Shown here in pieces: positions 17,534 through 46,959 of a stretch of 51,876 nucleotides of DNA. The notes under the pieces were generated by a model. That model was not told the origin of the DNA. It did not search any database and saw only the letters and a list, made by a program, of their open reading frames with translations. The translations under genes were made by a program, and so were the position numbers. Origin of the DNA: a virus; IMG/VR virus record IMGVR_UViG_3300035698_034991, positions 1 to 51,876 of that record. One strand, given 5' to 3'. Numbering within the stretch: the first letter of the stretch is position 1; each line of letters opens with the position of its first letter.

Positions 17534-19393
17534 TTATTTGTCTTGTTGGCTTAAATGTTTTATGTATAATCTCTGCCCTGCATCATAGATCTTATACCAA
17601 CCAAGTTCAGCTGCATGCTCGCTCATAGACAATTTTCTTTCATCCATGTTTGCTCGACATCTTAGTCTGTTGTAAGTCTCAAATCCGTCGGACCATTTCC
17701 ACCCAAGAGTCTCCCTGGTTTTGACAAATTCTTTATTGAGGAGGTGATTGCCTGTACCATATCGAAGGTCCACCCAATTATGAATTTCTGTGATGCTTGA
17801 ATCCAGGTGATTCTTTTCAAGATGAGATAGTAGTTTGCTAAACCCTCCTACTACACTTGTGTCCGTTTTCGAACAAAATCTATCGATCTTGCAAATATTT
17901 TTCTTTTGCTTGAAAGAAAGTAGGGATACAAGTTCGTCATTGTAAAACAGCCCAATATGTCTAGTATTTATCGAACCCATAAGATGATTACGGCTAAGAA
18001 ATTCCGAAGCTACTAAATTCTTGACGGTTCGTACCGTGCATTTGCGAGCATAAATTTTATTTACCGTGCGACCGTCGGCATTGCCAACAATGGATTTAAC
18101 AATATGTGGTCTGCTACGAATTTCATCACCTCTAATCTGCATAATGCGCAAGTTAGCCTCTTCGAACTCTTTTCTAAGGCCGAAGTGATACCACCTATCT
18201 TTTTGTATGTTTTCGCCATGCCAATACAACCCATCAACATTAAGGTATGTGGTATTATTAAGTTTAAAATCGGGTCGACGAAGAGATTTAATCTGTTTCG
18301 GAGATTTGTTATAGTGTTTAATATCAAGAAGCTGCTCGGCAAGAGTTTCTAAGCTGGATTTGCTTTCTTTATGGTTATCAACAAACTTAAGCAGGCTTTC
18401 TTCGGAAAAAAACGTTCCGCCAATGCTGTGACAATAGCGTGTCACTGTTATGATCGAGGGCCTTGGCCTTGGCTGTTCCCGTAACCATTTTGCAACGCTA
18501 CCCCCTGTTTCTTTGACCTTGTATTGAATTAGCAATTCGTGCGGTTGCTCTACTCCATAATTTTGCTTAAGAGTTTTTTTAATTTTTTCTTTTATTACCG
18601 CTGAGCCAAGCGGGGTTGTTGCACCGAAGCGTTCTAGGCAAGTAGCCTCTCTTTTTTCTTTAATTTTCCTGGCTTCAATTGGGTTGCTTAACTTTTCTAG
18701 GTGTGATTTGCTAATTTTATCTTTTACGCTTTGGAGTTGCGACACATGCTCAACTCCGTAACGCTCCAGGAGGGTGGATTTAGTTTTCGCCTGCACTTCC
18801 TTAGAATTCCAAGTATAATCAACTCCGTATTTTTCTTTTACCGATTTTTTTAATTTATCTTGAACGGACTTATTCTGCATTGGGTTTTTCACACCAAACC
18901 TAGCTAAGTTTGATTGCACTATCTTCTTTCGTACTTCTGCGCTTTGAAAAGAGCACTCAACTCCGTATCGATCGATATTTGTTTTTTTAGTTTTGTTCTT
19001 TATTATTTTGCTTTTTGAGGGGTTGTCCACTCCGTAGTTTTTTAAACACCCGGTCCTTCTTTTTTGTTTTATTTTTTCTGCTTTTTCCGGGTCGGCAAAG
19101 TTTCTCTTGTGCGCTTTGGAAATTTTTTCTCTAACTGATTTAAGTTGCGACTGATGCTCAACTCCGTATTTTTTTAATAAAGTCTCTTTTCGCCTTTGGG
19201 CCGCTCTGTTTGGATGAGCAGATTTTTCAATATACACTTTATTTGGAACAGACCAGAAATGGTCTTTTTCCACAAGGTCGTAGAATTTTGATTTTTTTTT
19301 CCAACCACCCCAACCATCTTTACATAGCTGTATGTCCTCACGGCCTTGTTCAACAAAACGCCTCAAAGCAATATCAAAAGTTATTTTTTTCAT
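17534..19393 (-). CDS. Repeat-rich homing endonuclease (VSR-like nuclease) with C-terminal GNAT-like domain
   Basis: This is a 619-aa protein. Residues about 65-265 hold seven or more copies of a roughly 30-residue unit built on YGV..(P/S)Q....V..KI, typical of DNA-binding repeats in phage homing enzymes. Residues about 335-440 resemble an EDxHD/VSR-like nuclease (RRPDFKLNNTTYLNVDGLYWHGE, then LRIMQIRGDEI). The last 170 residues (NHLMGS..HIGLFYNDELVSLLSF, GGFSKLL) look like an acetyltransferase-type fold; the role is unknown. It is a paralogue of the protein at 22400. It sits between two virion genes, has a -10-like TATGAT upstream, and is probably selfish. Confidence 0.75.
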   Translation of the reverse strand: MKKITFDIALRRFVEQGREDIQLCKDGWGGWKKKSKFYDLVEKDHFWSVPNKVYIEKSAHPNRAAQRRKETLLKKYGVEHQSQLKSVREKISKAHKRNFADPEKAEKIKQKRRTGCLKNYGVDNPSKSKIIKNKTKKTNIDRYGVECSFQSAEVRKKIVQSNLARFGVKNPMQNKSVQDKLKKSVKEKYGVDYTWNSKEVQAKTKSTLLERYGVEHVSQLQSVKDKISKSHLEKLSNPIEARKIKEKREATCLERFGATTPLGSAVIKEKIKKTLKQNYGVEQPHELLIQYKVKETGGSVAKWLREQPRPRPSIITVTRYCHSIGGTFFSEESLLKFVDNHKESKSSLETLAEQLLDIKHYNKSPKQIKSLRRPDFKLNNTTYLNVDGLYWHGENIQKDRWYHFGLRKEFEEANLRIMQIRGDEIRSRPHIVKSIVGNADGRTVNKIYARKCTVRTVKNLVASEFLSRNHLMGSINTRHIGLFYNDELVSLLSFKQKKNICKIDRFCSKTDTSVVGGFSKLLSHLEKNHLDSSITEIHNWVDLRYGTGNHLLNKEFVKTRETLGWKWSDGFETYNRLRCRANMDERKLSMSEHAAELGWYKIYDAGQRLYIKHLSQQDK

Positions 19394-22399: not shown

Positions 22400-24139
22400 A
22401 TGTCAGTAATACAACTAAAAGAATTTAAATCTGGCTCGGCAAACAGAATTACAAGAAAAGAATTGGTTCTTGAGTGTGACACATGCCAAAAAAGATTTGA
22501 AAGAATAAGCAATGTTCCTCGCTCTTTAAAAAGAAAGGTGCATTTTTGCACCAATTCCTGTGCGGCCAAATATAAAATGGAACATTCTGAGCAGGTTAAG
22601 AAGACTATTAACAACTTACACGCTCATCATGAAAAAATGAAAAGCAATAAATCCTATGCCAAGAAAATTGCAAAGCAGAAAGAAGAAACCTGCCTGCAAA
22701 AATATGGTGCAAAGACTCCCTTGGAAAGCAGAGAAATACGGGGTAGATGCACAAAAACCATGATAGAAAACTACGACGTCGACAATCCCCAAAAATCAAA
22801 AAAGATACAAGAGAAAACCAGGCGAACTAACCGCAAGAAGTACAACTCCAACTCTCCTTTTGGTTCCAGGGATGTTCAGGCCAAAGCCAAAGAAGCAATT
22901 AAAAAGAAATATGGCGTCGAGCATGTTATGCACTCGCCACAAGTGCGTAAAAAAATAAAAAAAACAAATCTCGAACGATACAAGGTGGAAAACCCAGGCA
23001 AGCTTGAAATTTTTATAGACAAGGCTAAAAAAACCAATGTTGAAAAATATGGAACCGATCATCCTATGAAGCAGGATGCTTTCAAGAAAAGTTTTCAAAA
23101 GAGGTTTTTTAAAACCCATGGTGTGACCGGGCCGTTTGCACTTGAAAAGGTCCGACTGTCACTAATGAAGCGCTTTGTTGAAACCGAGAGTGAATGCCTG
23201 AAAGACTGGTGGGATAAACAGCCAGAGCCAAAGCCAGCTCTTTCAACCTTATACCAATCAACAAAGCAAAAAACAATTTCCAAAAAGTTCTTACAAGAAT
23301 TAATTGACAATTACAAAGACAATAAAACTAAACTTGAAGTCGCAGCTGAGCAATTGCTTGAAATAAAACATTACAACAGGTCCCCCAAGGAAATTGCATC
23401 TTCACGCCGCCCTGATTTCAAACTCAGTGACGCCATCTTTCTCAACGTTGATGGGCTTTATTGGCATTCGGAACAGCAAAAGGAAGATCGATACCATCTT
23501 AACCTTCGTAAAGAATTTGAATCCGCCAACCTGAGAATCCTCCAGTTTAGAGGCGATGAAATTCGAAATAAACCCCAGGTTGTTAAATCCATTGCTAATA
23601 ATGCGCTTGGTAAAACCGCAACAAAAGTGTTTGCTCGTAAGTGTAAAATTGAAGTCTTGAAACACAAGGAAGCTGAGGTATTTCTTAATGAAAACCACCT
23701 TATGGGTTCAACAAACGCAAAACATTTGGGACTGTTTTATCTTGGGGAGTTGATTACCTTGCTTTCCTACAAACAAAAGAAAACTGTTTGTAAGATTGAA
23801 AGATTCTGCTCGAAAATAAATACAACATGTGTTGGAGGTTTTAGCAAATTGTTGTCATACCTCGAAAAGAATTGTTTGAATTCGAGAACAACCGAAATCC
23901 ATAACTGGGTGGACCTTAGATATGGAACCGGGGAACACCTTGCAACCAAGAGCTTTGTCCGGGCTAGGGAAACCCTTGGCTGGAAATGGACCGATGGATT
24001 CGAAACATTCAACAGACTTAGTTGTAGAGCCAATATGGATCACAGAAAACTAAACCAACAGGCTCACGCAGATGAGCTTGGTTGGTATAAAATTTATGAT
24101 GCAGGGCAAAGGTTGTGGGTAAAATCTTTAGCACTCTAA
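22400..24139 (+). CDS. Repeat-rich homing endonuclease, paralogue of the gene at 17534
   Basis: This is a 579-aa protein. An N-terminal zinc finger (LECDTCQKRF with CTNSC) comes first. At least six repeats of the KYG/YKVENP type fill about 75-240. The VSR-like nuclease core (RRPDFKLSDAIFLNVDGLYWH, LRILQFRGDEI) lies near 330-400. The C-terminal acetyltransferase-like domain is about 65-70 percent identical by eye to the paralogue. It is inserted between two virion genes on the opposite strand with its own early promoter. Confidence 0.75.
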   Translation: MSVIQLKEFKSGSANRITRKELVLECDTCQKRFERISNVPRSLKRKVHFCTNSCAAKYKMEHSEQVKKTINNLHAHHEKMKSNKSYAKKIAKQKEETCLQKYGAKTPLESREIRGRCTKTMIENYDVDNPQKSKKIQEKTRRTNRKKYNSNSPFGSRDVQAKAKEAIKKKYGVEHVMHSPQVRKKIKKTNLERYKVENPGKLEIFIDKAKKTNVEKYGTDHPMKQDAFKKSFQKRFFKTHGVTGPFALEKVRLSLMKRFVETESECLKDWWDKQPEPKPALSTLYQSTKQKTISKKFLQELIDNYKDNKTKLEVAAEQLLEIKHYNRSPKEIASSRRPDFKLSDAIFLNVDGLYWHSEQQKEDRYHLNLRKEFESANLRILQFRGDEIRNKPQVVKSIANNALGKTATKVFARKCKIEVLKHKEAEVFLNENHLMGSTNAKHLGLFYLGELITLLSYKQKKTVCKIERFCSKINTTCVGGFSKLLSYLEKNCLNSRTTEIHNWVDLRYGTGEHLATKSFVRARETLGWKWTDGFETFNRLSCRANMDHRKLNQQAHADELGWYKIYDAGQRLWVKSLAL

Positions 24140-24179: not shown

Positions 24180-26030
24180 TTATCCACGGGCAAGAGTCCC
24201 CAAAACTCTCTTTACTCCGTCCTTTTCGCTTGGCAATCTCTTGTCCTTTAGTTTTACCTTTACCACTTGTTGTTCTTGCAAATCAATGTTTATTAATTGC
24301 AGGCGGTATTCAGAGTTTCCATCTGTTTTAATAAGGCCAAGGTCGTTCTCATCACTGTCAGACAGCGAGAGAAATTCTGGGTTGAAAACAATTTTAGCTT
24401 CTTTGTGGCCGGAAGTTTTTATTGTATCAACAAAAGTATCTTCTTGAAGGAATGCATTTGGGTAGGCTTTTGGAGCACCCGATAAGGATATGAGTGTTTT
24501 TTCAAGCTTGTTCGTATACCTGTTAAATGAAACATGGAACTGTGTTGAGTAGTTTGATGAATACCCGTGTGCGTCTAATGCAACCACAGAATAAATAAAA
24601 GATGAATCCTTTGTGAATTCTCTATCAATAAAATAATTTTTTGGAGAAGGTACATTTTGAACCAAGCGAGGATCCGGTGTTTCATTAAGGGGTGTTTTAA
24701 TTGTACTGTCATCGAAACTATACATCTTTATAAGTTGGAACGGTTCGGTAATGGTGCTTCGACGGAAAAGCTGGAAATGTTTGATGTCTCGTTGGGGGTT
24801 GACTGGAAAATTCCACATTATCCTTGCGGCTTGATTCGTCACGCACCAATCCACGTTAAAATCCGCAGGCGGCGGCGGCGGAACGGCCTCCTCGGTTGTG
24901 GTCGTAAACTGCTCGCTCGGCTGTGATGAAACTAGAAAGCTTAAAGCAACTACCGAATTTGTTTCCGAGTCCTCAACTTGAAGTTCCACGAAAGCAATGG
25001 ATCGAATTGAATATACATATCTTGCTCCATATCTCACTTTCAAATCAGCTCCAGAATTTGCTCTTGGGTTTTCTATTATAATTGGGTCTTTGGGGATCAG
25101 TTCGCCATTTTGATTAAGTTCCCATTTATCAACAACATACCCAATGACCTGCACGGTTGAATCAAAAGCATTAGGATCTATTTTTCTAAAATTTAGAAAC
25201 TCCAAAACTTCAAAGTCATAATCCCGACCGTCAAGCAATGTGGCGTTCTTGTTTGCCACGGCCTCTTGTTGTATTTGCTCAACCTGGCTAAGAAATTTTG
25301 AAGACTCCTCGTTGTAAATATTCAAACTGTTTTGTGCTGATGTTTGAAGAGCTTTGTGAATAATTTTGTTATTGATCCGTGTTCTAACTTTAAGGGAGCT
25401 AATTTCTTTTATAGTGTCTTTTATTTTCTTTTCCCTCTTTCGCCCGTCGAAAAAGGTATATCCTTCGTTTGAATAATTTGAAAATGCACTCTTGAGAAAG
25501 TTGGTTGAAATGTTTGAAGCCGTTTTACTTTTATTGAATGCTGCATTTAGATCCTTAATGACATCCATTTTTGATTCATCTCGGTCGGCATCTTTATTGT
25601 TGCGTAATTCACTAAGTGCTCGTTTAACAAAAAAGTCAAGTCGCTTCGATGCGTCCGTATCTTGGAAATAGAGATTTGTAAAGCTATCACCCGTGAATGT
25701 CTGCTCGTTATGAACCTTATCTAAATTATCTGCAATCTTAACATTGTCTATAATCGCATTGTTCTTTCCCAAATTACGTTTTTCGTCTATTGTAGGTTTC
25801 CAAGAAAACCTAACAAACCTAGGCGTAAATCTTTGAAAATTGATAGAATCGATAAAAAAATTGTCGAACGACCCAGCTGGCCTCCGCTGAATAAATTTAG
25901 GAGAATCAAGCCCACTGGCATTTTCACGCTCATCAGGTTTAAAGAAATTGTAATCAAATGAGACTTCAAAATCTTCCACTTCTGGAACATCAACATTTGC
26001 AATTCTGCGACTGGGTAAACTTTCAACCAT
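24180..26030 (-). CDS. Virion protein with FN3-like domain
   Basis: This is a 616-aa protein. The first 90 residues are Phe/Asp/Asn-rich. Residues about 150-280 are helical (many K, N, Q), possibly coiled-coil. A five-proline run near 388-392 links to an FN3-like domain at about 395-500 (IMWNFPVNPQRDIKHFQLFRRS, FIYSVVALDAHGY). Such domains in phage tails promote surface contacts. It lies 13 bp from the 1416-aa gene and is transcribed after it. Confidence 0.72.
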   Translation of the reverse strand: MVESLPSRRIANVDVPEVEDFEVSFDYNFFKPDERENASGLDSPKFIQRRPAGSFDNFFIDSINFQRFTPRFVRFSWKPTIDEKRNLGKNNAIIDNVKIADNLDKVHNEQTFTGDSFTNLYFQDTDASKRLDFFVKRALSELRNNKDADRDESKMDVIKDLNAAFNKSKTASNISTNFLKSAFSNYSNEGYTFFDGRKREKKIKDTIKEISSLKVRTRINNKIIHKALQTSAQNSLNIYNEESSKFLSQVEQIQQEAVANKNATLLDGRDYDFEVLEFLNFRKIDPNAFDSTVQVIGYVVDKWELNQNGELIPKDPIIIENPRANSGADLKVRYGARYVYSIRSIAFVELQVEDSETNSVVALSFLVSSQPSEQFTTTTEEAVPPPPPADFNVDWCVTNQAARIMWNFPVNPQRDIKHFQLFRRSTITEPFQLIKMYSFDDSTIKTPLNETPDPRLVQNVPSPKNYFIDREFTKDSSFIYSVVALDAHGYSSNYSTQFHVSFNRYTNKLEKTLISLSGAPKAYPNAFLQEDTFVDTIKTSGHKEAKIVFNPEFLSLSDSDENDLGLIKTDGNSEYRLQLINIDLQEQQVVKVKLKDKRLPSEKDGVKRVLGTLARG

Positions 26031-26043
26031 AAACTTCCACTCT

Positions 26044-29000
26044 CTAAATGACGTTTTCTATACTTATGAAATAGTCTTCAAAAATTAACTCATTATTGTC
26101 TTTGGTTTTCAAAAACAATTTGTCCCCTTTTCTAACAAACCTATCTTGAACAAAGGTTTGCTCAAGGGCTAGCTTGCCACTTTCCGTCTCCCTGGTAAGC
26201 TCTTCGTCAATTTCAAACTCTTCAACGTTGAATGGGATATGAAAAATTCTATCAAACATCTTTGGACTAACTATTTGATTTCTTAATCTTGCTGGTTCAA
26301 ATACCATATCGCCATAAACAAACACCCTTAACATGTCCTTAGCTTGATCGTCGAATTCAGCATCTTTAAGCAGTTCGAGAATTGGCTTGTTTGGGATATC
26401 AATGTTTAACACATCTCGTATATAGGAATAAATTATGTCGACAAACTCCTGGTCCAGAGTCGAACCAGGTTCTACCGTCTGCCTTGTGAATGTTTCCTCT
26501 CCAAGCTTCATTCCAGTGAGAAGCCTTATATAAAGCTCAAGCAAGCTACTCGAAGAGTGGTTTTCCACAATGCTTCTTTTTTGCTCGTTTGTTAGGAAAT
26601 CATATTTTTCGTTATTTACGATATCTTGATAGGTTATTTTTTTACTATTTGAAATATTTTCGTAATCTTCAATTGAAATTCTATTAACGATGCGATCAAA
26701 AGGTTCGTTTTCTTTTGGTTGGGTAACAAGTATTTTATTTTCATCTTGAAACAAACTCAAGTCAAAAAAGAAAGACTGAGGCTTAAAAACAATGTCGTCA
26801 AAACGCTGATCTCTTTTATATACGTTTACCGAAATCACATCAAATTGCTTTGTTTTAAACGTGTTAGCACTAATCGCCGCCTGAGATATTCTCTCAGATA
26901 ACTGCTTGGAGAACCCAGCAGGTATTCCAACAGACATAATTTTCATTTTCTGCTCAGCTTGGTTTTGAGAAAGATAGTTGTTTTGTGATAAGAATGAATA
27001 TAAGGCAATGCGTGTTTCAGACTGAACAATCTCAGAATCTAAATACCAGGTGTTGTTTCGCTTGCCAATTTGTCCAAAGCTTTTTGTTCTGTTTTTAAAA
27101 TTGTCAATTAAAAAAGCGGAGGTTCTGACCTGCGAAGGATTTTTTACTATTTCCAAATCTTCCAATGTGTTATCTTCAAGAAAAGAATTTAGAGTGTCCG
27201 AATTGTATGTGTTTAGAACTCTTGTTTTCGCTTCTCTGACCTGGGATTCAATAACCTTTAGAATATTATTAATATTGCCTATGATAACATCCTCTGTTTG
27301 AATTTTATTTTTAATTGTAACAAGGGCATTTCTTAGATTTACTGTGCCCTTTTTAAAGTAAAGAGGGTTAATGCTAGCCACGCCGACCTTTTTAATGAGT
27401 CCCGACCCAACAAATGCTGAGGCTATGTTTAGCTGTAGCAGGTCTTTTTCTTCTTTTGATTTTCCTTTGTTATAAATACCGCCGTAGCCGGCTGGACCAT
27501 ATCCGGAGCGACTTGAGTCACCGGAGCTTTTTATGGTGGTTGAGCCGTAATGTCTCATGCGGTTGAACGCACCCCAGTTTTGATAACCTGAATTTGTTGC
27601 CGAGGTGGATTTTTCTAAGATATTTGATGTTATTATTTGACTAGGCAACCCGGTTGCAAAATACAAATCTGCGACACTGAATGACTTGGTGACCACGAGG
27701 TCATCAATAATATCAGCAACAAAGTTATTCTTTTCGGAGTTTACAGTAATTAGGAAATTCCGCCTAGCGGGCGACCTAATAAAGCTTGAAAAGCTATATT
27801 TGGATACATAGCTTGAAAGGATTTCGAACGCTAGAAGCAATTGTGTTGAAGTGCTGACAAAATTATATCTCGTTCGCCCGCTTTGGTCATCTAGCAAATA
27901 TTTACCATCACCATTAACGCTTGCTGATTGAGCAAAGGAATTTGCTAGGTTTACATATTCTTTTATAAAGTTTGAAACAGCAGACGCCTGCGGGTCGATG
28001 TTTGAAAGCAACACCTTAACAACTGCCTGCCAACTTGTGGTTATAGTTGTTTCATTTTGCTCTGTGGCCGAGAGTCCTAATCTTAAGTATGGCGAAACAG
28101 CGCCAGTATTCTGACTTGAAAACACAGACAGTTTATTTCCCTGCTGTTTTGATTTTTGAGCAACACCTAAACCTATTTTTGGAACAGGGGTAGTCAGCTC
28201 CAGAACTTTATTTGCAATATCCTGCGCAAGTTTTTCAATGTAAGGTCGCAGGGTTCTTAATCCGCCAAGCAAACTCACCTTTTCTCCCTCTTTTACTTGA
28301 ATTTCGGAAAAGTTTTCAATCAAAGGAATCTCTTCTCCCAATTGCTTAAAAATAGGTTTTATATCTTCGAAGTTATTTGAGGCAAGGCCTGTAAGCAAAC
28401 AAAATTGAAACAGTTTGCTTTTTAGTTTGTTGTCAGTGTTGGCAAGTTTAAAAACCGCAGTTACAATTGCTTGATCACGATTTATTTTTGAAACATTGGT
28501 TAGGTTTTCAACCGAGTTTTTCACGGAAGATAAAAACTTGTCATTCATTTCCGATGGTGATATATCGGAATTTTTGTTCAAACTAAAAAGCTTGGAAATG
28601 ATGCTTCTAGCATTTTTCGATTTTGCTGAAAACAAGTTTGAATAGTTGACAATCGGAGCGGTGTTAAATTTGTTGTTAGAGATTTCCAACAAGCTGTCAG
28701 TGAAATAGGAGCTTCCTGGGATATAAGTTTGATTGTCTTCACCAGCGTCAACGTATTTCCTTTCAAAAGGCAGAATTGGCACGTCGTTTGTTGATAAAAT
28801 TGTTGTAAGCGAAAGCAATGACTCGTCACCTAGTATCTTTTCAAATATATCGCTCCCCGGAATACCAATAATGTTATCAAAGGGGGAGCCTGTATCTCCA
28901 CTGGCAAAATCATCTTGTAGCTTTCTCTGGTTTTCAGGTATGCCCAAAGCTCTGGAAACTCTATATTCTTTACTTAGAATTGTAGTAAGAAGTTTGATTC

Positions 29001-30294
29001 GATCATCCGGATTATTTGGTAAAGAATTTAGAAACCCATTAAAGAACGACCGCTCTGTTGAGTTTGTCGCCACAGAAGTAGAACGAATTTGGTCTATTGT
29101 AAATGAAAACCCATCATTCAAGGTGTAGCTTTTGTCAATTGAAATTGGATTCTCATCGTTCTCTCTGTCGGGATCAACCAGACCAAGTAGATTTGTTGAG
29201 TAATTTTCTGAGATTTCTTTAAAGTCTGCAAGAAGTTGCATGATGATTTTTGTGTCGGAGGAAATTTCAAATTGTTCTTTAGTGAATTGCATTCTTTGCT
29301 GATAGAAATCCTCTAAAGATAAAAGCTGGTTCTTAAACTTTGATTTTGGGATATTTTTTATATCGAGAAGATTTTTTAAAGTTTCCGCCGAGCTTATGAA
29401 CTGTTTATAATATCCAACAGTCCTTTCCGTTTTTGACAATTCGTTGTTGATGTTTTTTTCAAACTTATCGATTTGACTATTAATTACCTGTTGCTTTGAC
29501 GGCCTCTTTGCTGCCTTCTTGGCAGCAATAAGAGCCCGTTGCCCATACTGTCCATAACCGTAACTGCTATATTTTTCAATATTTTTTTGTCTTGTCTCGT
29601 CCTTGCTTTTACTTTCATTAATATTTTCAAGTAGGCCATTGAGCGTTTCTCTTCTGAGTAAAAGGGAGTTGTATTGAATGTCAATTAATTTGCCAGCAGG
29701 TGTAAAGTCGTCAAAGAATTTTTTTGTTATAATATTTCTTTTCCAAATTGGCTTAAAATCAGTGACTTGTAAAATCTCAGGAACAAAAGAAGAAATGCCG
29801 TTTTTTTCGACAGGAACAAAAGTTCCGTTTTCGATTTTCGTCTCCGAAACATCCAGGGTGTCGTCGGAATAGGTTTCGCTTGCGGGCCTAAAGATAAAAG
29901 GAATTTGAATTCTTATCGGCATTATAGGCATTTGAAGCCTCAATGGTGTTCGTATTTGAGCTACGGTAAGTGTAAGTGGCAAATTCACCAGCGGAAGCGT
30001 GAGTTGTAAAACAGGCCTTGAGGAATTGATGGCCTTAACACTTCGGTTGCGCACGGTTGTAACTGCTTGAATTGTTCCCCTCCGTCTTGCACGACGGGTG
30101 GTTTGGCTTGCAGCACCCAAGGTAGAAAAAACCGAAGCTAGATTTTGGGCGTCGCCTTTCTTGGAGTTATTTTTATCCCCGGCTGCTACTCTTGGATCAC
30201 CTGCTAGATTTTGGGCGGCCTGGACAGTCATGTTGCCAATTCGCATCCGGCTTACATTAACATTTTTGTTGTTTTTGCTAGATCTTTTAGCCAT
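26044..30294 (-). CDS. Giant virion structural protein (1416 aa)
   Basis: This is the largest protein in the window. The first 60 residues are basic and low in complexity. A hydrophobic Pro/Leu stretch at about 95-135 (LQLTLPLVNLPLTLTVAQIR and on) is unusual for a soluble virion protein and could be an insertion or packing element. Long helical regions follow at 190-400, and a Gly/Ser/Tyr-rich patch (YGPAGYGGIYNKG) lies near 940. No enzymatic motif is seen. Size and position between FN3-containing proteins suggest a baseplate or tail component; the assignment rests on context. Confidence 0.68.
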   Translation of the reverse strand: MAKRSSKNNKNVNVSRMRIGNMTVQAAQNLAGDPRVAAGDKNNSKKGDAQNLASVFSTLGAASQTTRRARRRGTIQAVTTVRNRSVKAINSSRPVLQLTLPLVNLPLTLTVAQIRTPLRLQMPIMPIRIQIPFIFRPASETYSDDTLDVSETKIENGTFVPVEKNGISSFVPEILQVTDFKPIWKRNIITKKFFDDFTPAGKLIDIQYNSLLLRRETLNGLLENINESKSKDETRQKNIEKYSSYGYGQYGQRALIAAKKAAKRPSKQQVINSQIDKFEKNINNELSKTERTVGYYKQFISSAETLKNLLDIKNIPKSKFKNQLLSLEDFYQQRMQFTKEQFEISSDTKIIMQLLADFKEISENYSTNLLGLVDPDRENDENPISIDKSYTLNDGFSFTIDQIRSTSVATNSTERSFFNGFLNSLPNNPDDRIKLLTTILSKEYRVSRALGIPENQRKLQDDFASGDTGSPFDNIIGIPGSDIFEKILGDESLLSLTTILSTNDVPILPFERKYVDAGEDNQTYIPGSSYFTDSLLEISNNKFNTAPIVNYSNLFSAKSKNARSIISKLFSLNKNSDISPSEMNDKFLSSVKNSVENLTNVSKINRDQAIVTAVFKLANTDNKLKSKLFQFCLLTGLASNNFEDIKPIFKQLGEEIPLIENFSEIQVKEGEKVSLLGGLRTLRPYIEKLAQDIANKVLELTTPVPKIGLGVAQKSKQQGNKLSVFSSQNTGAVSPYLRLGLSATEQNETTITTSWQAVVKVLLSNIDPQASAVSNFIKEYVNLANSFAQSASVNGDGKYLLDDQSGRTRYNFVSTSTQLLLAFEILSSYVSKYSFSSFIRSPARRNFLITVNSEKNNFVADIIDDLVVTKSFSVADLYFATGLPSQIITSNILEKSTSATNSGYQNWGAFNRMRHYGSTTIKSSGDSSRSGYGPAGYGGIYNKGKSKEEKDLLQLNIASAFVGSGLIKKVGVASINPLYFKKGTVNLRNALVTIKNKIQTEDVIIGNINNILKVIESQVREAKTRVLNTYNSDTLNSFLEDNTLEDLEIVKNPSQVRTSAFLIDNFKNRTKSFGQIGKRNNTWYLDSEIVQSETRIALYSFLSQNNYLSQNQAEQKMKIMSVGIPAGFSKQLSERISQAAISANTFKTKQFDVISVNVYKRDQRFDDIVFKPQSFFFDLSLFQDENKILVTQPKENEPFDRIVNRISIEDYENISNSKKITYQDIVNNEKYDFLTNEQKRSIVENHSSSSLLELYIRLLTGMKLGEETFTRQTVEPGSTLDQEFVDIIYSYIRDVLNIDIPNKPILELLKDAEFDDQAKDMLRVFVYGDMVFEPARLRNQIVSPKMFDRIFHIPFNVEEFEIDEELTRETESGKLALEQTFVQDRFVRKGDKLFLKTKDNNELIFEDYFISIENVI

Positions 30295-30295
30295 G

Positions 30296-32764
30296 TTACA
30301 TCACCACCGAGTTTGTTTTTAATTCAGGCCCTCTGCTATAATCAAAAAACACTGGCACTATATAATAAGTCAGCTCCCCACATTCCTGGTTTGTTAGATT
30401 ATCAACAAATTGAAAATAGTTTGATTTTGATATGTTGTGTGATTTTCCCACGATAGTCCTCATGCCTAGTATTTCTAAAACAATTAGGAAGTGGTCAATT
30501 TTATTTGCGTCGCCCTGAACTTTCCATTGAACAAGCATTTTACTTTCTCCGAAATTGGATGCTTTGCCCGAAAACAGCGAAGGTAATACTTCTGCAAGGG
30601 AAACGGTCGAGGACTGACTATCAACGATCTTGCCAAATGTGAAGCTGTCTTTCGAATAATTTCTGGATAAGGAGCCTTCACTGACCAAATTTCCTCTTTG
30701 TAAAGTAATGGGGTGCTTCCATCGATTTGGTGTAAGAGTATAGCTAACGTTGGTCCTGACAGGCACGGTTTTGTTTAGCGTTGGAAACATTGTTTCAGCA
30801 TCTCTTGCGTGCGCAGTAAATGTGTATTTGTAAACAAGGCCGGCCTGTAAAGGTTTGACTGAGCGCACTCTGCCAAATTTCTTATCTGAAAATTCCGGAC
30901 TGGAAATTATTCCAAATTCTTCGTTTTCTCCTGTTGTTAAATTCCTACGAGTCACCCTTACCCCGAAGAGGTTTTGTAGAGTTTCTCTGTTTTTGATTAC
31001 TTGATCTTGAAATTCAGCCGTAATTCCCTGTTCCTCCAAGAAAGATTTTATCAAGTCTCCCTGGGTTTGAATTACATTTTTATTTACTGTGAATTTTATG
31101 TCAATGTCATCGCCTGATTGTTCAACCGTCGGGTTGCTAATTTCTAATTCGAGGACACTCGCTGCAATGGGATTATACTCCACTATTAAATTGTTTGCAG
31201 CCGATTCTTCATTGCCGTCAGGGAAGATCAATAGGACTCTGTATTCATATATTCTATCTGGCTTTAAATTTACATCTTCGATGATAATTGGTGCGTTGGA
31301 ACTAGCCTCCAGCAGAACGGTTTCACTGCCTTCGCCAGCTGGCTTAACAACGGAGAAGTTCCGTTCTTTTATTGTTAGGTCTTTTCTAAGGAGCCGTAGA
31401 GCTATCGGCCCTGACGGCACATCTAAAATTGTTATCGACAGGCCGTTGTCTTGTAATTCCTCGGAGATACTAAGGAAATGTGGTTGCCGTCTAAATTTGC
31501 TTTTTCTAAATGGCGGTGATTTTTGTTTTACAACGCTCGATGCGAAATCGGCGCCAAGAATATCGCTACTGTTGGCTGCAATTGCCCTGTATATTATAGG
31601 GCTTGTCGAAGCAAAGATATCATCAACCTTTTTATAGCCCTGACCTTTTTCTAAGGCAACTTCCCCAACAAAATCGTATTGTGCATCAATTTTTGGCGAA
31701 CTCTTATTCAATTCTTTCCGATACAGGGCAACTTTTGTTGCATTCTCATCAATTTGTTTTATGTTGAGTGTGGTCCGCCCGAGCGCCCCCACGTTAAAAG
31801 CTATCATTTCAGGGGCTTCAACAGGTATTTCTAATTTTGCGATATTTTCACTATGACTCACAGGTCGAGATATTGTTTGAACATCAAGCTGATCAGAGTT
31901 TTGTAGTTCGAAAATAAAAAAGAACTGGTCTTCTGTAAGGTCTCCCATTGGAATTTTAATTGTTTCAACAATCTCAATCCAGGTTGCCTCTTCTTTAACA
32001 GGCACATTGAAGAATACGGAATTCTTAAGCTGGTCTTGATTGGAATAATTTCTTTGTGAAAGAAGCGAAGCGACAAGCGGTGAACCGGACTTTATGTTCG
32101 TTTGGTTTGACGGCGCTCGTTTTGAAGTGACCCCATTCATAGCTTTTACCGCCGAAGAAATAGAATTGGTTCTTTGACCAACGAATGCCGCCGGGTCTTG
32201 GTTTTTGCTAAACAGTAGGTTGTTTGAAGCCAATTTAAAGTTTGTCTTTATTTCAGCTCCGGTAGAGTCTCGAACAATAGAGGGGAGTCTGGAAATGTTA
32301 CGATCCAACACAGGCATGGTAATGTTTCGATCACGCATAGTTTGAACTCTCACCGGCTTAATGGTGATTTTCCTAGTGCTCATCGGTCTGTCTGTAAACC
32401 TAGATTTAGCAAAGCCCAGCGTTCTGTTGTTTGGTATTTTCTTTGTTATATCACTGATATAGGTTAGGATTCTGTTGGCGGACTCTTGTCTTAAAACATC
32501 TTTTGTCAGCGATCGCCGCATTCGAAGTCTTTTGTGAATTAGGGCTGGGTTAAGGTTTGTAAATGACTTTATTGCTCTTCTGGGCTGAGGCTCGATCACA
32601 ACAGAAATTAAGGTTTTATAAGCCCTGCTCATAATCGCCTTGGTTGGGTCAACTCGATACCTCACCTTATAAACGAAATAACCGTCTTGGGTAATTTTTT
32701 CTAGTTTTGCAAAGTTTTTAGTAACTTCGATAACATTTGCATCTCTTTTTATTAAAGCTCTCAT
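30296..32764 (-). CDS. Virion protein with FN3-like repeats (822 aa)
   Basis: This is the first gene of the minus-strand virion cluster. The N-terminal 220 residues are Arg/Thr/Asn-rich. Several FN3-like beta modules follow, for example RIYEYRVLLIFPDGNEES and LVYKYTFTAHARDAE, with a final segment near 750-820 (VQWKVQGDANKIDHFLIVLE, ending YYIVPVFFDYSRG). It ends 1 bp before the start of the giant protein gene. Its own promoter must lie in 32765-32968, but no clear minus-strand element was identified. Confidence 0.7.
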   Translation of the reverse strand: MRALIKRDANVIEVTKNFAKLEKITQDGYFVYKVRYRVDPTKAIMSRAYKTLISVVIEPQPRRAIKSFTNLNPALIHKRLRMRRSLTKDVLRQESANRILTYISDITKKIPNNRTLGFAKSRFTDRPMSTRKITIKPVRVQTMRDRNITMPVLDRNISRLPSIVRDSTGAEIKTNFKLASNNLLFSKNQDPAAFVGQRTNSISSAVKAMNGVTSKRAPSNQTNIKSGSPLVASLLSQRNYSNQDQLKNSVFFNVPVKEEATWIEIVETIKIPMGDLTEDQFFFIFELQNSDQLDVQTISRPVSHSENIAKLEIPVEAPEMIAFNVGALGRTTLNIKQIDENATKVALYRKELNKSSPKIDAQYDFVGEVALEKGQGYKKVDDIFASTSPIIYRAIAANSSDILGADFASSVVKQKSPPFRKSKFRRQPHFLSISEELQDNGLSITILDVPSGPIALRLLRKDLTIKERNFSVVKPAGEGSETVLLEASSNAPIIIEDVNLKPDRIYEYRVLLIFPDGNEESAANNLIVEYNPIAASVLELEISNPTVEQSGDDIDIKFTVNKNVIQTQGDLIKSFLEEQGITAEFQDQVIKNRETLQNLFGVRVTRRNLTTGENEEFGIISSPEFSDKKFGRVRSVKPLQAGLVYKYTFTAHARDAETMFPTLNKTVPVRTNVSYTLTPNRWKHPITLQRGNLVSEGSLSRNYSKDSFTFGKIVDSQSSTVSLAEVLPSLFSGKASNFGESKMLVQWKVQGDANKIDHFLIVLEILGMRTIVGKSHNISKSNYFQFVDNLTNQECGELTYYIVPVFFDYSRGPELKTNSVVM

Positions 32765-33381: not shown

Positions 33382-34395
33382 ATGAATCATTACACCGAAG
33401 GAAAATTTATTTCTTTCATCAAGAAAGTTTTTCATGATACCAAACTCGATGGCCGAGGCAATAACATTATGGTTGTATGCCCAATGTGTCAGTCATTTAA
33501 GGGTACAGGTTATTCAAAACAAAAGTTGTCAATCAAAACAAGCAAGCCATTCATAGTCCATTGCTGGGTCTGCGGTTATAAAAATAAGGATGTGTATAAA
33601 ATCATTCGAAAATGGTTTCCTGATTTCTTAAATGAATATAAGACCAATTTCCTAGATGCAGAAGAGATCATAACGGTAGAAAAAGAAACCAAAAAAACTT
33701 TCGAGCCTGTAAAGCTACCAGCAGGTTTTAAAATGCTTGGCTCCGAATTGGATGGGTTCGACGATCTTGGTAAGTTTAGAGCAAAATATTACCAAGGTTG
33801 TTTAGATTATTTAAAATCTCGTGGTATAAAAAATAAAAGTGAATTGTGGTATTGGAAATTTGGCGCAACGTTGAATTATAAAGAAGGATGCAGGGACCGA
33901 ATAATAATTCCTTCGTTTGATATAGATGGCAAACTTTCTTATTGGACTGGTAGGTCTCTTGATGAAAAGAGCAAAAGGAGATATAAAAATCCTATTTGTG
34001 ATCGAAGAAATGTTATATTTAATGAAATTAATGTTGATTGGAGCAGCCCTCTGACTTTGGTTGAAGGCCCATTTGACCTTATAAAATGTAATCAAAATGC
34101 AACCTGCCTGCTCGGGTCGGAGCTGACGCTAGAATATACCTTAATGCAAAAAATTATAATGAACAAAACTCCGGTAGTTTTGGCTTTTGATCCTGAAAAA
34201 AAAGCACAAAACAAACAGCTTTATCTTGCAAAAAGGTTTTCCGAGTTCGACGTTGATGTAAAAATTGTTGAATATAAAAACAAAGACAGGGACGTTGGCG
34301 ACCTGTGTCAAAATGAGTTTAATGATCTGCTAGAATCAGCTAAGGTATATTCAGCGAGTTATCGCCTACGAAGAAAAATTGCTTCAATAGTATAA
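33382..34395 (+). CDS. DnaG-type DNA primase (zinc finger plus Toprim)
   Basis: This is a 337-aa protein. A CHC2-like zinc finger uses C33-x2-C36 and HC61-x2-C64 (CPMC, HCWVC). The Toprim core shows LVEGPFDL near 225-232 and an AFDPE strand near 270, followed by a KDRDVGDL acidic site. It is shorter than bacterial DnaG and lacks a helicase-binding domain, as in phage T4 gp61-like enzymes. It makes RNA primers for lagging-strand synthesis. It is co-transcribed with the Mre11-Rad50 fusion. Confidence 0.85.
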   Translation: MNHYTEGKFISFIKKVFHDTKLDGRGNNIMVVCPMCQSFKGTGYSKQKLSIKTSKPFIVHCWVCGYKNKDVYKIIRKWFPDFLNEYKTNFLDAEEIITVEKETKKTFEPVKLPAGFKMLGSELDGFDDLGKFRAKYYQGCLDYLKSRGIKNKSELWYWKFGATLNYKEGCRDRIIIPSFDIDGKLSYWTGRSLDEKSKRRYKNPICDRRNVIFNEINVDWSSPLTLVEGPFDLIKCNQNATCLLGSELTLEYTLMQKIIMNKTPVVLAFDPEKKAQNKQLYLAKRFSEFDVDVKIVEYKNKDRDVGDLCQNEFNDLLESAKVYSASYRLRRKIASIV

Positions 34396-34398
34396 AAA

Positions 34399-34605
34399 AT
34401 GATAAAAAATATAAAAATACCAATACCAGCCGAACATCTCCGTCGACTGTATTCGACGGAGCGTAAAAGTACGACCGAAATAGCTAAAATGTTCGTGCGC
34501 TCAAGTGTAACAATTTCTTCAAGACTAAAAGAGAACGGTGTTGCCATCAGAACACCCTTGGAGAGAAAAACTGGAAAGCTATTGAAAGAAATGAACACCG
34601 TATGA
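34399..34605 (+). CDS. Small helix-turn-helix protein
   Basis: This is a 68-aa protein. Residues about 14-50 form an HTH-like pattern (LRRLYSTERKSTTEIAKMF, then SSVTISSRLKENG) seen in small phage DNA-binding proteins. The rest is basic. Its stop overlaps the start of the Mre11-Rad50 gene by 4 bp. Regulation of its own operon is a reasonable inference. Confidence 0.65.
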   Translation: MIKNIKIPIPAEHLRRLYSTERKSTTEIAKMFVRSSVTISSRLKENGVAIRTPLERKTGKLLKEMNTV

Positions 34606-37600
34606 AGATTTGTCAAATTAGTGATATACATTGGCGAGGTATTAGTCGCCACGGAGAATACACAAAAGCCTTTGAACAACTTTTTAAGGATTTGCGTGAG
34701 ATTAAGCCAGATATTATTGTTAACTGCGGCGACACTTTCCATACAAAAACGCAGGGAATCTCACCGGAAATCGTTGAAAGGTTATCTTGGATGTTTCGTG
34801 GGTTGGCAGAAATTGCTCCCACGTATTCAATCCTTGGAAATCACGATGGTAACCTCACCAATCTAGGCCGCCAAGATATAATCACGCCGATTCATACTGC
34901 AATCGCACACCCAAATGCCAGAATTCTTCGGAAATCTGAAATGTTTAAAATCGAAGAATTTCCCTTCGATGCTTACTTCGGAGTCTTCTCACCATTTGAC
35001 AAGAAAAATTGGGACAAACTAAAGCCAATTAAGGGTGCTTTAAATATCGCCTTATTCCATGGTGCAGTTCAAAGTACAAAATTTGAAAATAACTTTGCCC
35101 TTCCGTTGGAAAACTGCGAGGCAAAGATAAAAGACTTTAATGGTTTTGATTTTACTTTTCTAGGAGATATTCACAATCAACAATTTCTTGCCGGGCGACC
35201 GGATAAGAATGGTGAAGAAAAGCCTTGTATGGGTTACCCAGGCTCACTAATTCAACAAAACTTTGGTGAAGGGGAAACAAAAGGCTACCTCGTCTGGGAC
35301 ATTAAATCAAAGGAAGATTGGGATGTTAAGTTTAAGGAACTGGAAAACTTTAGTCCGTTTTTAACCGTCGGTTGGGAAGGTACCGCTGAGGCCACGGTTG
35401 GTAAAATCATCGAAAGCCGGGGAACGAAGGCTTTCTTTCCTGGTTCGAGATTCAGGGTTTCTTCATCCTACGCAATTCCCAGTCCGCAATTGCGCAAGCT
35501 AACTCACAGCCTAAAAGAGACGCATAAGGCAGCTGAGGTTACCTTTAAATACGATTTAGTTTCTAGGATGGATCATATTGAATCCAATAACCTAAAAATA
35601 TCTAAAAAGGGCCTCAAGCAAGACCCGGATGCTATTGTTGGGTTGTACCTTGAGTACATAAAAGCCCATGCTTCAAATTATAATTTTGATACCGCACAAC
35701 TCGACGAAGCAGAAGCAATAATTCGAGGTCATGTAGCAAAAACGGCATTCCACAGTGACGATCCACCGCTAGGAGAAAAGAAGTGGGTAATCAAGTCAAT
35801 GGAGTTTGATAATCTGTTTCGCTATGGAGAAAACAACAAAATAGATTTTACAGACCTGGAAGGTGTTGTTGGAATCTTCGGCGCCAATAAATTAGGCAAA
35901 TCCTCTATTGTCGGAGCACTTATGTTTATATTGTTCAACACGACAGATCGGGGACCACGTAAAAATGCTCACATTATTAACGCAAATAAATCATATGGCA
36001 AGGGCTCGGTTCGCCTTTCGTTGGACGATGTAGAATATATTATTGAGCGTCGAACAGAACGTGTTATTCCTAAAAAAACATCCACAAAAGTTCCAAATGA
36101 CAAAACCACCACGTCTGTAGATTTTTGGAAAGTTGCCTGGGATGAGGCAGAAGGATGTGAGAAAAGAATACCAATGAACTCGATTAGCCGAGACGATACT
36201 GACAAGGAAATTCGCAAGCTCATCGGAACGGCGAGCGACTTTCTAATGACGGCGTTTTCCTCGCAAGGTTCGATAGACTCGTTTATTAAAGAAGGGCCAA
36301 CAGAAAGGAAGAAAATTCTTTCGAGGTTCTTAGAGTTGGATATTTTTGAAAAACTCTATTATCTTTGTAAAGAAGACTATAATGTTCTAAATGCCAAAGG
36401 CAAGGCATTGTCACCAGAGTCAATAAAGCAGATTGCCGAAACCGCCCGGACACAAATAATCAAACATGAGACCGACCTTAGCGTACTGGGTGAAAAAATT
36501 GAAAAAGCTCGTGGTAAAAAGGACGAATACAAACTGTGGATGATGCAACATGAGCAAAATGCGGCCAATGTTGATCTGGCACATCTCAACAAGGCCAAGG
36601 CTAAGATAAAGTCTTTAGAAGAAGACCACGAAAATAAAAAGAATGAACTCGAAGAAATCCGAAGCGAAATTTTGGAGATTGGCGAAAGGCTAAAAACTAC
36701 AAAGTCGGATAAATCGAAAATTGATATTGAAAATCTAAAAAGTGATTTGACGAAGTTCGAATCGCTGAAGTCAGCAGTCAATGATCTTAGGCATGAATTA
36801 AATTCCGAGGAGTTGCTGCTCCAAAACCAAAAGAAAAACATTAAAAAACTAACAGTTGTTCCTTGTGGGGATGAATTTCCGAGCTGCCACTATATTAAAG
36901 ATGCACACCGTGATAAGAAAAAAAGTGCAAAGCAGGAGGAGTTAGTTAATAAGCTAAGTGAGCAGTACCAAAACAACGAAAAATCCCTTGAAAAGTATGT
37001 CTCAAAAAATATCAAAGAAAACATTGAGAAATACAACAAACTAGAAAAAGAAAAATATGTTCTCGAATCAAAGCTTGCGTCGCTGCGAATTGGTAGAGAT
37101 AATATTCGTGCGCAGATTACAATCACCAAGGCCGAGGTCGTCAAGCTCAAAAAAGATCTGGCAGCACTTCAAAAAACTGTTGATGTATTGGAGGGTGAGG
37201 AATTCGAAAGAAAGAAGGCGTCGATCACCCAGGTTCGAAGCTCAATACAAGACCTTGAAAATAAAAAACAGAAGATTTGGGTTGACCTTGGCGGCAAAAA
37301 AGAACAACTTAAACAATTTTTGGAAGAAGAAAAAGAAACAAAGTCTATTCTTAAAAAACTAAAGATTTATGATTCAATCTCTTCGGCTTTTTCGAAAACC
37401 GGGATTCCTGCAATGGTTTTGAAATCACAGCTGCCAGCGATTAATCAAGAGCTAGAAAAAATACTTGACAGCGTTGTTGATTTTAGAATTGACCTTGAAA
37501 CCGATGTAAGTTCAAATGTTATGGACGTTTATATCAAAGACGGACATAGCAGCAGAATAATTGAGTTGGCTTCTGGAATGGAAAAAACTATTGCCAGCAT

Positions 37601-37841
37601 GGCTTTGAGAGTTGCACTAATCAACTTATCATCTTTGCCTAAATCTGATATACTAATTTTAGATGAAGGTTTCGGCGCACTTGATGAAGAAAATATGCAA
37701 AGCTGTATGGAAATACTTTCTTTTTTGAGAGGTTATTTCAAAACAATATTGGTAATCTCGCATATCACAGCCGTTAAAGAGGTAGCTGATAGAATTATTG
37801 AAATTAAAAACACTGGAGTAGAGTCCAGCGTTTACGTCTAA
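34602..37841 (+). CDS. Single-chain Mre11-Rad50 (SbcD-SbcC / gp47-gp46) fusion nuclease
   Basis: This is a 1079-aa protein. The N-terminal ~330 residues are a complete Mre11/SbcD phosphoesterase: SDIHW, NCGDTFH, LGNHDG, LFHGAV and FLGDIHNQ. The Rad50/SbcC part follows. Walker A GANKLGKSS lies near 428-436, the Q-loop FSSQGS next, and long coiled coil from 590-940 carries a CGDEFPSC hook near 755. The signature ELASGMEKT lies near 988, Walker B ILILDEGFGALD near 1018, and the H-loop VISH after it. T4 and bacteria encode these as two proteins. It should process DNA ends for recombination-dependent replication. The start overlaps the HTH gene by 4 bp. Confidence 0.93.
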   Translation: MKICQISDIHWRGISRHGEYTKAFEQLFKDLREIKPDIIVNCGDTFHTKTQGISPEIVERLSWMFRGLAEIAPTYSILGNHDGNLTNLGRQDIITPIHTAIAHPNARILRKSEMFKIEEFPFDAYFGVFSPFDKKNWDKLKPIKGALNIALFHGAVQSTKFENNFALPLENCEAKIKDFNGFDFTFLGDIHNQQFLAGRPDKNGEEKPCMGYPGSLIQQNFGEGETKGYLVWDIKSKEDWDVKFKELENFSPFLTVGWEGTAEATVGKIIESRGTKAFFPGSRFRVSSSYAIPSPQLRKLTHSLKETHKAAEVTFKYDLVSRMDHIESNNLKISKKGLKQDPDAIVGLYLEYIKAHASNYNFDTAQLDEAEAIIRGHVAKTAFHSDDPPLGEKKWVIKSMEFDNLFRYGENNKIDFTDLEGVVGIFGANKLGKSSIVGALMFILFNTTDRGPRKNAHIINANKSYGKGSVRLSLDDVEYIIERRTERVIPKKTSTKVPNDKTTTSVDFWKVAWDEAEGCEKRIPMNSISRDDTDKEIRKLIGTASDFLMTAFSSQGSIDSFIKEGPTERKKILSRFLELDIFEKLYYLCKEDYNVLNAKGKALSPESIKQIAETARTQIIKHETDLSVLGEKIEKARGKKDEYKLWMMQHEQNAANVDLAHLNKAKAKIKSLEEDHENKKNELEEIRSEILEIGERLKTTKSDKSKIDIENLKSDLTKFESLKSAVNDLRHELNSEELLLQNQKKNIKKLTVVPCGDEFPSCHYIKDAHRDKKKSAKQEELVNKLSEQYQNNEKSLEKYVSKNIKENIEKYNKLEKEKYVLESKLASLRIGRDNIRAQITITKAEVVKLKKDLAALQKTVDVLEGEEFERKKASITQVRSSIQDLENKKQKIWVDLGGKKEQLKQFLEEEKETKSILKKLKIYDSISSAFSKTGIPAMVLKSQLPAINQELEKILDSVVDFRIDLETDVSSNVMDVYIKDGHSSRIIELASGMEKTIASMALRVALINLSSLPKSDILILDEGFGALDEENMQSCMEILSFLRGYFKTILVISHITAVKEVADRIIEIKNTGVESSVYV

Positions 37842-41161: not shown

Positions 41162-42109
41162 ATGAATCTAGGTTACGCCTGTATAAATATGGAATTAAGC
41201 TCCGGCCCAAAGAAGCACCGGGTCACCACTAATCGCTCAATGATCAAAAGAACGTTCATGGAGCGAGGCATTGCATATGCTTCCGAGCTTACATTAAAAA
41301 ATGTAACAGATTTGGAAAAAATATTACACTGGAACGAAAACCACGGCATTAAATTCTTTAGAATCTCTAGCGAAATATTTCCTTGGGCGAGCGAATACGA
41401 TATTAGCAATATGCCAGATATTGAGGCCATATCCGCTGCTTTAAAACGTGCTGGGGATTTTGCTACGAAAAACAACCATCGTATCACGTTTCATCCTGGT
41501 CCGTTTAACAAGCTATGTTCGCCCGCAGAACGAGTTGTGAAAAACACAATTACTGACTTAGAAATTCATGGTAAAGTTTTTGATCTTATGGGATTGTCAA
41601 GGACGCCATATAACAAAATCAATATCCATGTCGGCGCTGCATACGATGATAAATCAAAAGCTTTAAATGATTTTTGTCGCAATTTTGATAGGTTACCTAG
41701 CTCGGTGAAATCAAGGCTAACAGTTGAAAATGATGATAAACCCAGCCTGTATTCGGTGAAAGACCTTTATAATGGGGTATATGAAAAAATTGGCATTCCA
41801 ATTGTTTTTGATTATCATCATTGGAATTTCAGAAATGATGGTGAAAGTCAAGAAGAGGCCTTGTGTGTTGCATTAGAAACCTGGGGGAACATAACCCCTG
41901 CTGTCCATTACAGCGAAACAAAAAGAAATGCGGACGGTACGGATTACAACCGTCCGAACGCTCATTCCGATTACCTGTATAACTTCATTGACACCTATGG
42001 TAAAAATATCGACGTAATGATTGAGGCCAAAGCAAAAGAACAAGCACTATTGCGCTACAGAAGAGACTGGCCCGAGGGAAGAGAGTTGGTATTCAGTGCA
42101 AGGAAATAA
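41162..42109 (+). CDS. uvsE: UV-damage endonuclease UvdE/UvsE
   Basis: This 315-aa protein is of normal length for the bacterial UVDE TIM-barrel. Recognisable family segments are the opening LGYACIN, FFRISSEIFPWAS, RITFHPGPFNKL, INIHVGAAYDDK, LTVENDD, IVFDYHHWNF and VHYSET. These carry the three-metal site His, Glu and Asp residues. The enzyme nicks DNA 5' to UV photoproducts and starts an alternative excision repair route. It heads an operon with a zinc-ribbon protein, nucleotidyltransferase and IF-1. Confidence 0.92.
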   Translation: MNLGYACINMELSSGPKKHRVTTNRSMIKRTFMERGIAYASELTLKNVTDLEKILHWNENHGIKFFRISSEIFPWASEYDISNMPDIEAISAALKRAGDFATKNNHRITFHPGPFNKLCSPAERVVKNTITDLEIHGKVFDLMGLSRTPYNKINIHVGAAYDDKSKALNDFCRNFDRLPSSVKSRLTVENDDKPSLYSVKDLYNGVYEKIGIPIVFDYHHWNFRNDGESQEEALCVALETWGNITPAVHYSETKRNADGTDYNRPNAHSDYLYNFIDTYGKNIDVMIEAKAKEQALLRYRRDWPEGRELVFSARK

Positions 42110-46468: not shown

Positions 46469-46515
46469 AGTATATGAAACACAGTGCGTCCCGTCGAAAG
46501 GAAACAAGGAACATA

Positions 46516-46959
46516 ATGGAAGCTGAATTGGAGACAATGCCGTATCAACATACAATGATGGACGACATTGAAGAGGTTTCAAAAATCGAGGGAGTCCGAG
46601 TCGCTTTCGTTAATTTTGAAACTGAGCGTATTATTATGGCTTTACCTTCGGACAAAGCCGGACATCAGGAAATATTAGATAGAATAACATTCTTTGATGC
46701 AACGGAGCGTATCCAAGTGGTTTCGGCAGATTTTACTTCGGGTGAAATCACAATAAAGTTCCTCCCAAAAGGGATGACGAAAATACTATCCTTGACTTCT
46801 GCCTATTTTACCAAAAAAGAGGTGGAGTTAATCCTGACGGGGAACCGCATTGCTGCTATCAAATTAGTAAGAGGTAGAACTAACTGCGGGCTGAAAGAGG
46901 CTCTCAACGCTGTTGATAGATACAAGCAACTTCACAAGGGTTCTAAATTTACCTCCTGA
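46516..46959 (+). CDS. Protein with ribosomal L7/L12 C-terminal-like domain
   Basis: This is a 147-aa protein. ATG 46516 has AAGGAA upstream; ATG 46474 would add 14 residues but sits at the predicted transcript start. Residues about 100-138 (EVELILTGNRIAAIKLVRGRT, GLKEALNAVD) match the L7/L12 C-terminal domain, including the IKxVR and GLKEA core that contacts translational GTPases. The first 95 residues are a separate alpha/beta domain. It may recruit EF-Tu, EF-G or IF2 in phage-infected cells. Short L12-like segments also occur in unrelated proteins, so the role is uncertain. Confidence 0.7.
   Translation: MEAELETMPYQHTMMDDIEEVSKIEGVRVAFVNFETERIIMALPSDKAGHQEILDRITFFDATERIQVVSADFTSGEITIKFLPKGMTKILSLTSAYFTKKEVELILTGNRIAAIKLVRGRTNCGLKEALNAVDRYKQLHKGSKFTS

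Follow-up and report, generated by a model that had tools for sequence, protein, structure and literature searches.

A single-chain viral Mre11-Rad50 nuclease with a CX6C hook, and apparent exchange of hook cassettes among related viruses

The window (the whole stretch of DNA analysed here, a 51.9-kb virus record) carries a fusion ORF that stays open across 1079 codons and that, with a probability of roughly 0.78, encodes a single-chain R555-like viral Mre11-Rad50 (SbcD-SbcC) nuclease whose CX6C hook comes from a two-class, repeatedly exchanged hook system. The fusion as such was described in 2011 by Yoshida, Claverie and Ogata for Mimivirus R555 together with twelve more cases, one of them in Bacillus phage 0305phi8-36; their survey also found carriers among plasmids, bacteria and eukaryotes, and used metagenomes to argue that fused genes are abundant in aquatic viruses (PMC3175470). 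The novelty that the original prediction implied for the fusion is therefore not upheld, the architecture being both published and common in viral contigs.

Domain layout, predicted fold and catalytic motifs

That Mre11 and Rad50 lie in a single 1079-aa chain, nuclease then ATPase, is borne out by the single ORF and by Pfam and PHROG (Table 1). Pfam places Metallophos at residues 1-155 (48.9 bits) and SbcC_Walker_B at residues 982-1039 (29 bits), both above cut-off, and a PHROG_77 SbcC match spans residues 389-1073 (1.4e-53); the R555-type trait, a Metallophos nuclease followed in the same frame by an SbcC/Rad50 ATPase, is present. By sequence, the closest solved relative is the archaeal Rad50 3aux (1.8e-13, phmmer). 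An AlphaFold2 model of the monomer, built with 59 family members, has a mean pLDDT of 84.6 and a pTM of 0.48, a long flexible rod being expected to score a low pTM. Using Foldseek, the nuclease core of this model was found to resemble T. maritima Mre11 3thn and S. aureus SbcD 7dog (TMt 0.68-0.69), the Rad50 heads were matched at TMt of about 0.6-0.7, and the top BFVD structural matches were fused-length proteins of Tupanvirus, Harvfovirus, Catovirus and the phages pT24 and PTm1. The helix-loop-helix that follows the nuclease would be expected to dock at the base of the Rad50 coil.

Table 1 Fusion gene, its predicted domains and the gene directly upstream (residues refer to the fusion protein).
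Feature	Position	Strand	Basis or remark
Primase-like gene, directly upstream of the fusion	33382..34395	+	PHROG_47 3e-36
mre11-rad50 fusion gene	34602..37841	+	1079 aa plus stop; one uninterrupted frame
Mre11/SbcD-type nuclease domain, residues 1-240	34602..35321	+	Pfam Metallophos, motif invariance, Foldseek
Capping region and helix-loop-helix, residues 241-384	35322..35753	+	AlphaFold2 secondary structure; helices 342-355, 364-384
Interdomain linker, residues 385-393	35754..35780	+	AlphaFold2, pLDDT about 64
Rad50 N-lobe, residues 394-590	35781..36371	+	Walker A GANKLGKSS (427-435), Q-loop Q555
Coiled coil, N-terminal arm, residues 591-752	36372..36857	+	AlphaFold2 helices
Hook tip loop, residues 753-765, C755/C762 CX6C VPCGDEFPSCHYI	36858..36896	+	AlphaFold2; class survey
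Coiled coil, C-terminal arm, residues 766-930	36897..37391	+	AlphaFold2 helices
Rad50 C-lobe, residues 931-1079	37392..37838	+	SGME 991-994, Walker B LILDEG, D-loop LDE, H1054

The Mre11 motifs of the window protein read D8-x-H10, G43-D-T-F-H47, G79-N-H-D82, H153 and G188-D-I-H191, and its Rad50 motifs comprise Walker A K433, Q555, the signature S991-G-M-E994, the Walker B/D-loop D1021-E1022..L1027-D1028 and H1054. In the 208 fused ORFs listed from our scans, Mre11 D8, H10, D44, H47, N80, H81, D82, H153, D189 and H191 are invariant, as are Rad50 K433, Q555, G992, E994, D1021 and E1022, and H1054 is found in 207 of them, the remaining one having a gap. The full set of Rad50 ATPase motifs was rightly predicted, with Walker A, Q-loop, SGxE signature, Walker B, D-loop and H-loop all found, but the claim of all five Mre11 motifs stands only for DxH, GDxxH/D, GNHD and HG: motif V is GDIH in 208/208 listed fused ORFs, the window included, and not the canonical GHxH. 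This His-to-Asp change was noted earlier for Mimivirus R555 (PMC3175470), and T5-type D12 relatives have GDLH (G-D-x-H). Since such a motif V is shared with R555 and the T5-type D12 relatives, the window nuclease is classed as an R555-type variant rather than a canonical Mre11. By analogy with its relatives, the fusion protein would have metal-dependent nuclease activity.

Prevalence of the fusion and integrity of the junction

Fused homologs are present in hundreds of IMG/VR contigs, and at least 208 distinct full-length fused ORFs, the window's among them, were recovered from different contigs of viral records, the 208-ORF sample being the best 80 matches of each scan. The assembly error or frameshift suspected at the Mre11-Rad50 junction is excluded by this count, and the search for the fused architecture in other genomes shows it to be very common in viral contigs. 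Other fused homologs include those of Microcystis phage Mel-JY01 (1066 aa), LR756508, LR756501 (1202 aa), pT24 (1310 aa) and XacN1 (1099 aa). The relatives were recovered with an alignment query instead of a single-protein query; single-protein scans with rare peptides of P0001 yielded no relatives in viral or genome contigs. A plasmid search gave weak Rad50 C-lobe matches only, and the phage collection held no close DNA relative of window positions 12000-36999.

In the AlphaFold2 model, the linker of about 9 residues (385-393) after the cap and helix-loop-helix fits the expectation for R555-type proteins, in which 9-12 residues were estimated to bridge a gap of ~28 A (PMC3175470). The family junction has the consensus R391-N392-[VI]-x-W395 (R391 in 205, N392 in 201 and W395 in 207 of the 208 listed ORFs), from which the window departs with G391 and E392 while keeping W395. 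We also considered whether cleavage of the chain or an internal restart yields separate Mre11 and Rad50 in the cell. The linker region of the window does contain an AGGAG ahead of an in-frame ATG (M400), but the 23-nt spacing between them is too long for a ribosome site, and the junction R, N and W are conserved at the protein level in the family. No conserved internal restart was found, a Shine-Dalgarno sequence with a start near the junction being present in 4/208 listed homologs; an internal translation start is thus rejected as a general feature, separate products are highly improbable, and the fixed 1:1 stoichiometry that had been proposed is a fair inference.

Several homologs are interrupted elsewhere in the gene. 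One fused homolog (L018:4980-9263) has a ~340-aa in-frame insert with a LAGLIDADG domain, which splits Walker A between GK and SS (GPNRIGK/ALDINT...PTHN/SSIVGA, slashes marking the ends of the insert) and begins with Ala, not Cys or Ser; this is evidently an intein. Two further fused genes (L002:3560-4600 and L074:5560-5830) share an interruption site immediately behind the catalytic GDIHxxQ motif, the L002 interruption containing an endonuclease-like ORF and that of L074 measuring ~200-270 nt only. Both are probably mobile introns, and Rfam searches of L002 and of the L074 interruption matched no intron family. The LR756508 fusion gene is likewise broken by an endonuclease-like ORF.

Hook classes and their exchange among related viruses

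The hook of the window protein, C755-GDEFPS-C762, has six residues between its cysteines (CX6C), and here the sequence and the predicted tip-loop position agree with the original prediction: the AlphaFold2 monomer forms an antiparallel coil whose tip bears both cysteines, within a loop of 13 residues (753-765) that joins helix 709-752 to helix 766-800. When modelled likewise, the CXXC relative L068 also carries its hook on a loop flanked by two long helices. The CXXC motif has been called 'absolutely conserved' in Rad50. The window hook is indeed wider than this, but it is not peculiar to the phage, and its reading as a private oddity is ruled out: CX6C is the majority type in the sample (131 of the 208 listed fused ORFs, followed by 58 CXXC, 13 CX7C, 1 CX8C and 5 other, with CX6-8C together at 145), although these fractions are not prevalences, given that the sample holds the best 80 matches per scan. 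Nor is the wide hook a consequence of fusion, an explanation rejected on finding CX7C in an unfused Moorella phage SbcC and CXXC in other fused phage proteins; the unfused phage gp46/D13-type proteins examined have CXXC. A word search of the literature found no paper on CX6C hooks, which is weak evidence of novelty; one candidate, PMC12153180, concerns hinge-less SMC proteins of actinobacteria, not wide-hook Rad50.

The two main classes differ in more than cysteine spacing. Their consensus sequences are PCGxxfpxCKFI for CX6C and HeYDPdCxfCxxNkFVKdA for CXXC, and among the listed ORFs the C-terminal arm exceeds the N-terminal arm by +2 in 109/131 CX6C and by +11 in 47/58 CXXC proteins. Between the 5th percentile and the median, arm length differs by seven residues, in line with a preserved coil register. 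Some tips are altered: L041 and L047 have PCGPDCGLR, and L069, L070 and L180 have PEFLRGCKC or PGFLRGCKC, in which the first hook cysteine is absent. As the latter three retain one cysteine at the usual place, the cysteine pair is not strictly required.

The hook and coil were excluded from a head-only tree of 600 columns, on which hook class switches at least 14 times, or 12 times with branches below 80-95 support collapsed. Shuffled class labels average 50.6 changes on the same tree, so that hook class is heritable yet often switching. Among pairs matched for head identity, those of one class share 70-95% identity over the hook tip (746-768) and those of different classes 33-39%; where heads are at least 90% identical, the hook region 722-796 has a median identity of 79% within a class (70 pairs) versus 41% between CX6C and CXXC (10 pairs). 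Family-wide, the coiled coil (591-930) evolves far faster than both heads; near the hook it is about 24-30% identical where heads are 75-85% identical, and the hook tip stays conserved within each class.

The clearest case is the pair L053 (CX6C) and L068 (CXXC), whose heads are 97% identical and whose contigs share about 85% DNA identity along their length. Codon-window identity between them is mostly 78-95%, drops to 22-57% at residues 733-785 and is 65-73% just after. The L053 hook is closest to that of L102 (65% hook, 82% head), and the L068 hook is closest to that of L100 (77% hook, 88% head) and is also near that of L101. A chimeric assembly is unlikely, since another contig, L098 (131 kb), carries the L053 protein at 100% and the L068 hook resembles those of L100 and L101. 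Further mixed-class pairs exist (L151/L208, L148/L223, L029/L142, L062/L271 and L054/L164), in which drift and replacement are inseparable because the coil differs too, and the sharp divergence boundary is seen in L053/L068 only. Some tract divergence in the older pairs is ordinary drift, as the near-hook coil is fast-evolving even within a class. In the window itself no swap is visible, its near kin all being CX6C. Given the differing hooks on 97% identical heads and the restriction of divergence to the hook tract in L053/L068, hook cassettes appear, from these sequence comparisons, to have been exchanged many times among related viruses.

These patterns could instead reflect an ordinary viral fusion with neutral drift of the hook loop and class changes by small in-place indels, with no cassette exchange. 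The fusion is already known (PMC3175470), coils drift fast, and both hook motifs share a flanking KF[IV]KDA and differ in total length by about three residues. We nevertheless regard this as unlikely: same-class tips rank with the most conserved stretches of the arm, arm offsets are fixed per class, the hook DNA of L053/L068 is replaced although the adjoining DNA is near 85%, and each of these two hooks is nearest to an other-lineage hook of its own class. Cassette exchange thus remains our preferred reading. More tentatively, and at somewhat less than even odds, the hook may be an exchangeable dimerisation cassette that comes in two or more classes differing in chemistry and excluding one another, with short-tract recombination switching class and thereby blocking mixed dimers, or shared hook inhibitors, with co-infecting relatives or hosts.

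As to hook chemistry, the wide CX6C hook would bind metal and is a candidate zinc hook, conserved loop cysteines alone being no proof of zinc, and the fusion protein is predicted to dimerise through it. A disulphide between the cysteines, or a different metal or Fe-S cluster held by them, would make the tip redox-switched rather than zinc-clamped; the pair may also have some other role that involves no metal. Disulphides are uncommon in the cytoplasm, and the same coil-tip place in the models, the exchange with CXXC on near-identical heads and the usual retention of the cysteines suggest equivalent function. A redox-switched tip is therefore quite improbable, despite the wider spacing and PCG motif, which set it apart from the CXXC hairpin seen in known hooks (PMC5093744).

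Genomic setting, proposed mechanism and known systems

The fusion of Microcystis phage Mel-JY01 likewise has a primase-like gene upstream, and that of LR756508 is preceded by a similar ORF. No obvious Shine-Dalgarno sequence occurs close before the fusion ATG in the window (34571-34602, GAAATGAACACCGTATG). Downstream lies a strong UV-damage endonuclease UvdE gene (41162-42109, Pfam 5.9e-66), with dCMP deaminase and AlkB-like genes near it; together with the primase, these would fit a block of replication and repair genes. None of the window ORFs scanned was identified as a recombinase. Elsewhere, the window has a pair of large, related ORFs of HNH/homing-endonuclease type that point in opposite directions and are separated by about 3 kb (17534-19393, minus strand, and 22400-24139, plus strand; PHROG_3339), and three large ORFs of 616, 1416 and 822 aa with no PHROG match (24180-32764, minus strand), possibly virion proteins. 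Genes for a Thg1-like tRNA-His guanylyltransferase and an RNA ligase and a tRNA-Arg(TCT) (7621-8352, 9180-9824 and 13241-13316) form a possible tRNA repair set, and 46474-46959 gives a weak, sub-cut-off match to the ribosomal protein L7/L12 C-terminal domain.

Our model of the mechanism is drawn from homology to T4 gp46/47 and to SbcCD, whose working is established knowledge (for T4 also PMC13402864). Two chains would most likely build one M2R2 machine in which the nuclease domains pair, ATP pairs and closes the ATPase heads, and the arms of the coiled coil, each of about 160 residues, join at the tip hook. ATP hydrolysis would then drive processive 3'-5' trimming and endonuclease action, while arms and hook tether DNA. 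By this analogy, the enzyme may serve in replication and DNA tethering, opening, trimming and tethering phage DNA ends for recombination-dependent replication and repair, like T4 gp46/gp47. The CX6C-type and CXXC hooks would act as alternative cassettes on the same heads, each class keeping its own arm offset. Switching between them on nearly identical heads amounts to a natural hook-replacement experiment, with a laboratory precedent in the replacement of the hook by an SMC-type hinge (PMC6969161), and lets one test whether hook chemistry or mere tip dimerisation matters. For biochemistry and structural work, enzymes with Mre11 and Rad50 in one chain are handy as well.

Among known systems, Mimivirus R555 shares with the window protein an N-terminal Mre11 and C-terminal Rad50 in one chain, a short linker after the cap/HLH and a motif V whose first His is replaced by Asp; its type is abundant in aquatic viral metagenomes, and giant-virus fused proteins are the top BFVD matches of the window. 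The two differ in length (1079 aa in the window, 1351 aa in R555), in source (phage versus giant virus) and in the wide CX6C hook of the window, the R555 study making no mention of hooks or zinc (PMC3175470). T4 gp46/gp47 and T5 D13/D12 represent the same two enzymes in a phage replication/recombination setting, but as two separate genes rather than a single ORF, and the unfused gp46/D13-type relatives examined differ from the window in hook class. E. coli SbcCD and cellular Mre11-Rad50 agree with it in domain order within the complex, ATPase motifs, coil and tip hook, whereas the canonical complexes have two chains, a GHxH motif V and a CXXC zinc hook (PMC5093744, PMC6969161) instead of the C755/C762 tip. 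The proteins of Mel-JY01, LR756508, LR756501, Tenacibaculum phage pT24 and Xanthomonas phage XacN1 are fused like that of the window, and all have CXXC hooks; XacN1, with a GHFH motif V, probably represents a separate fusion event. Conversely, Moorella phage MTATph1 has a window-like wide hook, VPCNDKLKPSC (CX7C), in an SbcC encoded separately from SbcD, so that the wide hook is not tied to fusion.
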